Shown here: in pieces, positions 12,449 to 52,595 of the stretch
Layout of the letters: the number at the start of each line of letters is the position of its first letter
Position numbering within the stretch: the stretch's first letter is position 1
Assembly: GCA_018822435.1 (NCBI GenBank)
Contig: JAHJKD010000038.1
Span: 1-53,765, forward strand
Direction of reading: 5' to 3'
DNA length: 53,765 nucleotides
Source: Patescibacteria group bacterium
Lineage (GTDB): Bacteria > Patescibacteriota > Patescibacteriia > UBA9570 > JAHJKD01
The notes under the pieces: model-generated
Databases searched by the model: none
What the model saw: only the letters and a program-made list of their open reading frames with translations
What the model was told of the DNA's origin: nothing
Translations under genes and position numbers: made by a program

Positions 12449-12631
12449 CATCTCTCTCTGGGGGCACTATTTCAGTTTCAATGGGACGCTTAATACAATC
12501 ACCGCGTCCTCTAAACACGAAATCTTTCCGCCCCCTTCCCCCATCTGTGGAAAACTTTAAATATTGCTAAAAACCATCAAATTGTTATACTTATTTTCGT
12601 TCATACGTACTTTAAATAACAAGATACTCTT

Positions 12632-12678
12632 CCTCTCATCAGTATGTTTATAAACATTATAAACATACTGATGTGAGG
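12632..12678. promoter_or_regulatory. Long near-perfect inverted repeat (21-bp arms, 1 mismatch), candidate operator or mRNA hairpin
   Basis: CCTCTCATCAGTATGTTTATA aacat TATAAACATACTGATGTGAGG; no U tract. Confidence 0.7.
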
Positions 12679-12755
12679 AGGGGCTTGTAATTAGGGGGAT
12701 CCCATAGGGGGAGAACCAGAAAGCAGCCAATTTTAATCTCGGGGAGAATCGCAAA

Positions 12756-24947: not shown

Positions 24948-24968
24948 AATATATTTATCTGATATTCT

Positions 24969-25037
24969 GAAGGCGGACATCACCACGTCCGCCTTTTAGA
25001 TACGTTTTTTCATGGCGGATTTGTGAAATCCGCTTTC
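24969..25037. repeat. Two-hairpin palindromic element (intergenic copy) downstream of fusA
   Basis: GAAGGCGGACatcaccacGTCCGCCTT ... GGCGGATTTgtgAAATCCGCTTTC. Confidence 0.75.
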
Positions 25038-25095
25038 AATTCTTTTTATTCCAATTAATTTTATGCTATAATATCTTTATAAATAAAAAAGAGGG

Positions 25096-36788: not shown

Positions 36789-37244
36789 ATGGAAGCAAGA
36801 GCATATTTAAAAAATTTACAGATCAGCCCGCGCAAAGTCAGATTAGTTGCTGACATGGTGCGTGGTCTTGATATCGCTGAAGCACAAAAGGTGTTAGCGT
36901 TCAATGAAAAGAAAAGCGCTCCCGCTATTCTGAAGCTAATGAATTCTGCCGCTGCTAATGCTGTAAATAATAATAACGCCGAAAAGAATAAACTGTTCAT
37001 AAAGACAATCATGGTAGATGAAGGCTTTACCCTAAAAAGATGGAAGCCAAGAGCCATGGGCCGAGCCACTCCTATTCTAAAAAGAGCATCTCGTGTTACT
37101 ATCATTGTTGCAAATCGCGAAGGTACGAAAGATCGAAAACCACAAAGCACGAAGAATGTGAAAAGCTCGAAAACTGAAAAGAAAAAAGCAGTGAAAGCGG
37201 ATTTCACCAAATCCGCCTCTAAAAAAACTAAAGAGAAAAAATAA
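36789..37244 (+). CDS. rplV: Ribosomal protein L22 with basic C-terminal extension
   Basis: AYLKNLQISPRKVRLVADMVRGLDIAEAQKVLAF ... FTLKRWKPRAMGRATPILKRASRVTIIV. Confidence 0.96.
   Translation: MEARAYLKNLQISPRKVRLVADMVRGLDIAEAQKVLAFNEKKSAPAILKLMNSAAANAVNNNNAEKNKLFIKTIMVDEGFTLKRWKPRAMGRATPILKRASRVTIIVANREGTKDRKPQSTKNVKSSKTEKKKAVKADFTKSASKKTKEKK
37197..37216. repeat. Palindromic repeat unit in frame in the rplV C-terminal extension
   Basis: GCGGATTT cacc AAATCCGC; same unit as at 51898-51917. Confidence 0.75.
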
Positions 37245-50151: not shown

Positions 50152-50492
50152 CACGCCTTCGCTTCGCTACGGCGATGCGAGCCGATCTCCAACAATATCA
50201 AATTTCATCAACAATGCATTACGTTTATATTCTCAAAGAAAAAAGCAAAAATCATTTTTATATTGGCTCTACAAATGATTTAGAAAGAAGGATTAAAGAA
50301 CATAAGAAGGGAACCACAAGAACAACTAAAGGAAGAGAATGGGAATTATATTGCTATTTTGCATTTAGCAATAAAATAGTGAGTCAAAATTTTGAAAAAT
50401 ATCTTAAAGGCGGTTCTGGCCGGTCTTTTTCTAAAAAACATTTCGAATTCAAGGTCGACGAAGCGTAGCGAAGTTGCCCCTGTACGCCCCAC
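50139..50492. mobile_element. Candidate tRNA-associated GIY-YIG cassette bounded by a duplicated tRNA-Lys 3' end
   Basis: Direct repeat CCTGTACGCCCCAC at 50139-50152 and 50479-50492; inner inverted repeat CTTCGCTACG 50162-50171 / CGTAGCGAAG 50464-50473. Confidence 0.65.
50214..50468 (+). CDS. Small GIY-YIG endonuclease domain protein (84 aa)
   Basis: MHYVYILKEKSKNHFYIGSTNDLERRIKEHKKG; ORF-track start at 49965 is artefactual read-through of the tRNA. Confidence 0.9.
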   Translation: MHYVYILKEKSKNHFYIGSTNDLERRIKEHKKGTTRTTKGREWELYCYFAFSNKIVSQNFEKYLKGGSGRSFSKKHFEFKVDEA

Positions 50493-51365: not shown

Positions 51366-52595
51366 ATGAATGTCCTCTTTAAAACATTAGGTTGTCGCCT
51401 GAACCAAGCCGAAGAATACGAATATAAAAAAGCCCTCGCCTATGAGGGATTTTTAATTGTGAGCAAAGATGATGATTTTGATATAGCCGTGGTAAATACC
51501 TGCTCTGTTACGCATAAGGCCGACCGCGAATCCCGCCAGGCCATTCGCCAATTAAAAAAGAAAAATCCGGATGTCAAAGTCGTCATGACTGGATGCTGCG
51601 ACTTTAATATTCCGGAAGTAGAATATTATATAGAAGATAAAGAAAACTTTGTAGAGAGATTTCTAGACATTTTCCCTTCACCAAAAAGCAAGAAGGAATT
51701 CACGATAAACAAAAATCGCATCAATGTAAAAATTCAGACCGGTTGTGACAATTACTGCACTTATTGCATCACTACCCATCGCCGCGGCCCTTCCCGTTCT
51801 ATTGATCCGGAAAAAATTATTTCTCAAATTCAAGACATTGGAAAAAACGGCTTTAAAGAAATAGTTATTACTGGAGTAAATATTGGACAGTATGAAAGCG
51901 GATTTCACCAAATCCGCCTTGATGGCGGACATAGTGATGTCCGCTTTCAACTTCTAGATTTATTAAAATTAATATTAGAAAAAACAAAAATTGAGAGAGT
52001 GAGGTTATCTTCAATCAATCCTGAATATATTTTTAAGAATCAAGAGTTCATTGGATTGTTTAAAGACCCGCGCATGTGCCAACACCTTCATCTCTCTTTG
52101 CAATCCGGCAGCGATAAGATATTAAAATCCATGAACCGGCATTATGACTCAGCTCAATATTTAAAAGTAGTAAAATCTTTTTACCAGCTCTATCCTGACT
52201 TTGGCTTTACCACTGATGTCATCGTCGGCTTTCCCGGAGAGACGACCGCAGATTACGCAGATTCAACAGATTTAGTAAAGAAGTGTAAATTTTTAAAATT
52301 GCATATTTTCAGATACTCACCCCGCCCGGGCACACCTGCCGCAGAAATGGATGATCAAATCGACGAACCAACCAAGGCGGAGAGAGCCACTGAATTAGAA
52401 CAAGTAAATCAAGAATTAAAACAAGAATTTCAGAAAAGAATGATTGGTAAGAATTTAGATGTTTTATTTGAAGGGGAGCGGGACGGTTACCTGCTTGGTA
52501 CAGCCGGCAATTTTCTTAAGGTAAAAATAAAGTCAAAAAAAGATATAAAAAATCAGGTCATAAACCTGAAGATTAAAAAAGAAAATATTATTTGA
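51366..52595 (+). CDS. mtaB: MiaB-like radical SAM methylthiotransferase (MtaB type)
   Basis: TLGCRLNQAE, VNTCSVTHKADRESRQAIR, QTGCDNYCTYCITTHRRGPSRS, LSLQSGSDKILKSMNRHY, TDVIVGFPGET. Confidence 0.94.
   Translation: MNVLFKTLGCRLNQAEEYEYKKALAYEGFLIVSKDDDFDIAVVNTCSVTHKADRESRQAIRQLKKKNPDVKVVMTGCCDFNIPEVEYYIEDKENFVERFLDIFPSPKSKKEFTINKNRINVKIQTGCDNYCTYCITTHRRGPSRSIDPEKIISQIQDIGKNGFKEIVITGVNIGQYESGFHQIRLDGGHSDVRFQLLDLLKLILEKTKIERVRLSSINPEYIFKNQEFIGLFKDPRMCQHLHLSLQSGSDKILKSMNRHYDSAQYLKVVKSFYQLYPDFGFTTDVIVGFPGETTADYADSTDLVKKCKFLKLHIFRYSPRPGTPAAEMDDQIDEPTKAERATELEQVNQELKQEFQKRMIGKNLDVLFEGERDGYLLGTAGNFLKVKIKSKKDIKNQVINLKIKKENII
51894..51948. repeat. Two-hairpin palindromic element in frame inside the mtaB-like CDS
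   Basis: GAAAGCGGATTTcaccAAATCCGCC ttgat GGCGGACATagtgATGTCCGCTTTC; encodes ESGFHQIRLDGGHSDVRF. Confidence 0.8.

Follow-up and report, generated by a model that had tools for sequence, protein, structure and literature searches.

A 57-bp palindromic insert in the mtaB gene of a Patescibacteria group bacterium is very likely a copy of a dispersed, non-autonomous element, namely an inverted pair of REP hairpins with BIME/REPIN architecture that inserted into the gene. We observed a genome-wide family of these hairpins and their pairing, an mtaB frame that stays open across the insert, extra residues that orthologs do not have, and in-frame copies in other genes. All coordinates below refer to the window, the whole stretch of 53,765 nucleotides that was analysed (assembly GCA_018822435.1, contig JAHJKD010000038.1).

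An inverted hairpin pair lies in frame within mtaB

The mtaB gene and the parts of its insert are as follows.

51366–52595, + strand: mtaB, tRNA t6A37 methylthiotransferase, 409 aa, carrying the in-frame insert (NCBIfam TIGR01579; flanks aligned to orthologs)
51893–51918, + strand: U:A-type REP hairpin arm, TGAAA GCGGATTT CACC AAATCCGC C (covariance model, 46.2 bits; copy alignment)
51919–51923: spacer TTGAT, 5 nt, separating the two arms (sequence)
51924–51949, − strand: C:G-type REP hairpin arm, inverted, so that the TGAAA ends face outward, TGAAA GCGGACAT CACT ATGTCCGC C (covariance model, 45.1 bits)
51894–51950, + strand: element-encoded peptide ESGFHQIRLDGGHSDVRFQ, 19 residues between QY and LLDLL (5–6 residues in the closest orthologs)

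The initial annotation had described an in-frame insert in an MtaB-like enzyme, consisting of two adjacent hairpins at 51894–51948. The insertion is borne out: the protein passes the MtaB equivalog test (NCBIfam TIGR01579, 389.9 bits against a cut-off of 357.05), the reading frame is open across the element, and on either side of it the sequence aligns in frame with MtaB orthologs. Both hairpins are likewise present, although they extend slightly further than described, the insert being an inverted pair of a 25/26-nt hairpin that spans 57 bp (51893–51949). Each arm folds alone as single-stranded DNA (z about −6), but the pair is most stable when its arms fold onto each other as a single long hairpin rather than as two.

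As the annotation had anticipated, the extra residues are missing from the closest MtaB orthologs (L100–L104, 43–44% identity), which have 5–6 residues where the window protein has 19. In these orthologs the loop that joins the GxN-xxxY strand to the following helix reads, for example, QYKYQNYNFTQLV. The orthologs compared are at most 44% identical to the window protein, and none among them comes from a close relative in which the site is cleanly empty. Longer natural loops do occur at this position in more distant MiaB proteins, so the site tolerates changes in length. The window protein keeps the six expected cysteines (C10, C46, C78 or C77, C127, C131, and C134), which we take to be the ligands of its two clusters. 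Deleting the 57 bp from mtaB leaves a TAA in frame; the insertion was therefore not a simple, clean cut-and-paste of a 57-bp unit, or the flanks have since changed. The target sites showed no consistent duplication.

The hairpin belongs to a dispersed repeat family

A DNA search of the bacterium's own genome (1.32 Mb, 63 contigs) returned tens of matches to the element. Using a covariance model built from 50 copies, we found 53 copies (E <= 1.2e-4), far beyond the window, at 36 sites that comprise 17 inverted pairs and 19 single copies. The copies were studied through searches and the stretches around them, and the list of sites was partly assembled by eye. The pattern AGCGGAN6-12TCCGCY matched this genome 45 times, compared to once for a reversed control pattern. 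The count of coding and intergenic copies that had been suggested places 27 of the 36 sites neither in gene bodies nor at gene ends, with in-frame copies in at least five genes.

Besides the mtaB insert, the window contains these copies.

24968–24993, + strand: C:G-type REP copy, first arm of an intergenic pair (covariance model, 38.5 bits)
25014–25038, − strand: U:A-type REP copy, second arm of the same pair (covariance model, 44.5 bits)
37192–37217, + strand: single REP copy coding the end of uL22 (VKADFTKSAS...), about 33 nt before an rpsC-like start codon (covariance model)

A relative reported between genes at 24969–25037 is thus an inverted pair at 24968–25038 between two genes, while the third site, at 37192–37217, had been missed. 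Two further near-perfect inverted repeats in the window, at 12631–12679 and 566–606 (23- and 19-nt arms), are unrelated to the REP family. At 50250–50468 we noted by eye a GIY-YIG-like frame (MHYVYILKEKSKNHFYIGSTNDLERR) directly after what appears to be a tRNA gene read through as protein.

The hairpin unit can be written as TGAAAGCGGA-nn-TCRC-nn-TCCGCC, or as TGAAA-GCGGAnnT-loop-AnnTCCGC-C. At the base of the hairpin, in the position of the guide tetranucleotide, stands a near-invariant 5′ tag, (T)GAAA, which is neither GTAG, the commonest such tag of REPs, nor CGTC. The aligned copies were chosen for the motif, so the conservation of the outer stem partly reflects this selection, but no such constraint was placed on the inner pairs. 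There, column pairs 10-21, 11-20, and 12-19 change on both sides and stay paired, as A-U/G-C, U-A/C-G, and U-A/A-U/G-C, respectively. Overall, 98.3% of stem cells are paired compared to 36–43% with slid partners, and stem columns 10–12 contain 38 double-change cells compared to 14 in shuffles.

Outside this genome the family was absent from the 383 other genomes of the class, the present one being the only match to a tight pattern among 384. The hairpin pattern had no match in viral contigs, and among 85,462 species scanned there was one isolated match, in a Microbacteriaceae record, which looks like chance. Because the nearest genomes compared share only the order, the family may be common to unsampled close relatives.

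Pairs always join two hairpin subtypes

All 17 pairs are heterotypic, each consisting of one C:G-type and one U:A-type (T:A) arm as defined at stem pair 11-20. When arms were shuffled, this outcome was reached in 6 of 100,000 trials (permutation p = 6e-5). The linkers within the pairs measure 5–29 nt, and the TGAAA ends point outward in 14 of the 17. An alternative reading of the heterotypic pairing is selection against perfect long palindromes. The three intragenic pairs, measured from TGAAA to TTTCA, are 57, 57, and 66 bp long, all multiples of three, compared to 4 of 14 pairs elsewhere; the chance that all three would be divisible by three is about 4%. These lengths back a filter imposed by the reading frame, as supporting rather than decisive evidence.

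Copies occur in frame in unrelated genes and at gene ends

At least four genes besides mtaB carry in-frame copies: those for a family-B DNA polymerase, PolA, a membrane protein, and a zinc-ribbon protein. The family-B polymerase, which resembles archaeal PolB (L002:2-2302) and was possibly acquired from a mobile element, has a pair just after its motif-C hairpin in an alignment with archaeal PolB. This insert was judged against archaeal PolB structures alone, as a search of 24 genomes of the class yielded no PolB ortholog. A pair also lies in the 609-aa membrane protein (L003) and a single copy in PolA, within the length-variable linker that joins the 5′-nuclease and 3′-5′ exonuclease domains; the zinc-ribbon protein has two copies. 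The copies in these four proteins are read in the same register, giving ESGxxxIR and/or GGxxDVRFQ. Another open register appears at gene ends, as KADFTKSA in uL22, where the copy at 37192–37217 codes the C-terminal tail VKADFTKSASKKTKEKK, and as ADLVKSAF in an MFS protein. Our best reading is that copies have been retained in loops where orthologs vary.

Single copies cluster upstream of start codons

Nine single U:A-type copies lie in the sense of the gene, 8–23 nt ahead of its start codon (L011, L013, L014, L015, L017, L022, L039, L064, and L066), as does one arm of the L027 pair. Such copies often fill a 45–65-bp gap between co-directional genes, and one antisense case was seen (L144). Genes downstream of the sense single copies include msrAB, rplK, a dnaJ-like gene, and an epimerase gene. 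All gene calls were made from open reading frames and not by a trained gene finder, which leaves start sites that adjoin elements uncertain. The sense copies may have a 5′-leader role or may reflect an orientation bias of insertion. It is conceivable, though rather doubtful, that U:A-type singles have been co-opted as 5′-leader hairpins for adjusting translation or the processing of mRNA, with the heterotypic pairs as the form that moves; the family would then be both a coding filler and an RNA device.

These copies bear on the strongest alternative for the mtaB insert itself, that it is a structured RNA element selected for a function in the mRNA (processing, pausing, or translational control) instead of a tolerated insertion. 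Some of the sense copies before start codons may indeed act in mRNA, and the 76-nt RNA of the mtaB element folds very stably, its minimum free energy (−37.8 kcal/mol) being well below the mean for shuffled sequences (−15.4; z = −7.3). The compensatory changes in the stem would also be expected of such an RNA, but they fit recognition of a single-stranded DNA hairpin by a transposase too. The host genes are unrelated, the positions within them differ, and the majority of copies are intergenic. We rejected a terminator, as the mtaB copy has no terminator-like site, and a known RNA family, as every Rfam family scored below its gathering score, with nothing near it. We therefore regard a selected RNA element in mtaB as improbable.

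Two Y1 transposases are linked to other palindromes

The genome contains two Y1 (IS200-like) transposase genes, on contigs C49 and C6.

L060:1423-1875 and L061:1261-1818 (G000 C49 and C6): Y1 transposases

Their matches to the REP-associated transposase model score under its cut-off. A separate palindrome flanks each gene (AAATGTCCTACCCCTTAAGGGG... and GAATTTAAGCCCCGAATTCATTCGGGG...), and both palindromes are dispersed at many places. Since each Y1 gene adjoins its own dispersed palindrome family, Y1-linked palindrome families exist in this genome, and we take these two to be further REP-like families. The REPtron pattern is thus seen twice, neither time for the TGAAAGCGGA hairpin, and we rejected both enzymes as its cognate by adjacency, given that they carry other palindromes. 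No transposase adjoining the TGAAAGCGGA hairpin was found in the assembly, which is 93.7% complete, so the gene could be missing from it.

Comparison with known palindromic elements

The closest counterparts are the intragenic REP dimers of Di Nocera et al. 2013 (PMC3733652), which are likewise short hairpins, often inverted dimers, found in frame in unrelated genes while most copies are intergenic. More than half of those intragenic REPs (GTAG and CGTC) are dimers or groups, and they code 20–30 residues, so the paired hairpins that the initial annotation had regarded as distinctive do not set the present element apart. They often occur in genes of DNA synthesis and repair, DNA polymerase I included, a host that the two sets share. 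The present family differs in its (T)GAAA tag, in place of GTAG or CGTC, and in its CPR-like host, which is outside the host groups of that study (Proteobacteria, Cyanobacteria, Chloroflexi, and the PVC group for GTAG repeats, with Rickettsia among the CGTC hosts). No reports of REPs or RAYTs in CPR surfaced among the open-access papers searched.

The E. coli BIMEs and TnpA-REP/RAYT REPtrons (PMC8266576) similarly have a tetranucleotide 5′ to the hairpin, inverted pairs, and variable linkers. E. coli BIMEs combine y with z1 or z2 REPs (PMC8266576), and the present pairs also join two different subtypes. In contrast to E. coli, the stems here are without the bulge, the genome has 53 copies where K12 has about 600, and no transposase gene was found flanked by the present REP. 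REPINs (Bertels and Rainey 2011, PMC3116915) share the inverted doublet that folds as one long hairpin, whereas here the two arms are always of different subtypes and single copies are frequent.

The annotation had likened the insert to Rickettsia palindromic elements (RPEs). In-frame palindromic insertion is the right class of event, but the tag is not that of RPEs and a REP pair fits better. Actual membership in the RPE-4/RPE-6 families or the CGTC-type REPs would account for a short palindrome placed in frame in unrelated housekeeping genes without a dedicated transposase (PMC3733652), and RPEs also reside in a small genome (PMC10969869, PMC3733652). The CGTC group includes RPE-4 and RPE-6 and has no known transposase (PMC3733652). 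RPEs are described as about 150 bp long, with CGTC in RPE-4/6 (PMC10969869, PMC3733652), and the TGAAA-tagged unit differs from these descriptions. Copies here carry TGAAA, not CGTC, at the base of the hairpin, and are numerous in this genome alone with none in the other 383 of the class, which makes such membership very improbable.

That the palindrome is a codon coincidence in a conserved MtaB peptide selected at the protein level is barely credible: loop length does vary here among MiaB-family proteins, some having longer ones, but an insertion common to orthologs is refuted for this element by the closest orthologs, which lack the residues, and the same DNA recurs between genes, inside other genes, and in different frames.

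A proposed mobile unit with two ends and a reading-frame filter

Taken as an inserted REP pair, the mtaB element would have arisen when an inverted hairpin pair landed in the gene. It could have survived there by virtue of a length divisible by three, of one open register that codes a stop-free, polar peptide rich in Gly, His, and Arg, and of a site, the radical-SAM domain loop that follows the GVN strand, that would be tolerant of length change. The insert would probably be neutral for MtaB. Copies would have spread in the form of single-stranded DNA hairpins through the action of a RAYT/IS200-type (Y1) transposase that presumably reads the hairpin together with the TGAAA 5′ to it. The mobilising enzyme may lie outside the assembly or have been lost, or either of the two Y1 enzymes may do the work in trans.

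On our best reading the family is new and of REP/BIME type (REPIN-like) with in-frame intragenic copies, a kind that has itself already been described. The strict heterotypic pairing in 17 of 17 pairs, together with the multiple-of-three lengths of the intragenic ones, points to a mobile unit that has two ends and is filtered by the reading frame. In-frame palindrome insertion, best known from Rickettsia and some Proteobacteria, is now seen in a small CPR-like genome, where its hosts include core enzymes such as MtaB and DNA polymerases.
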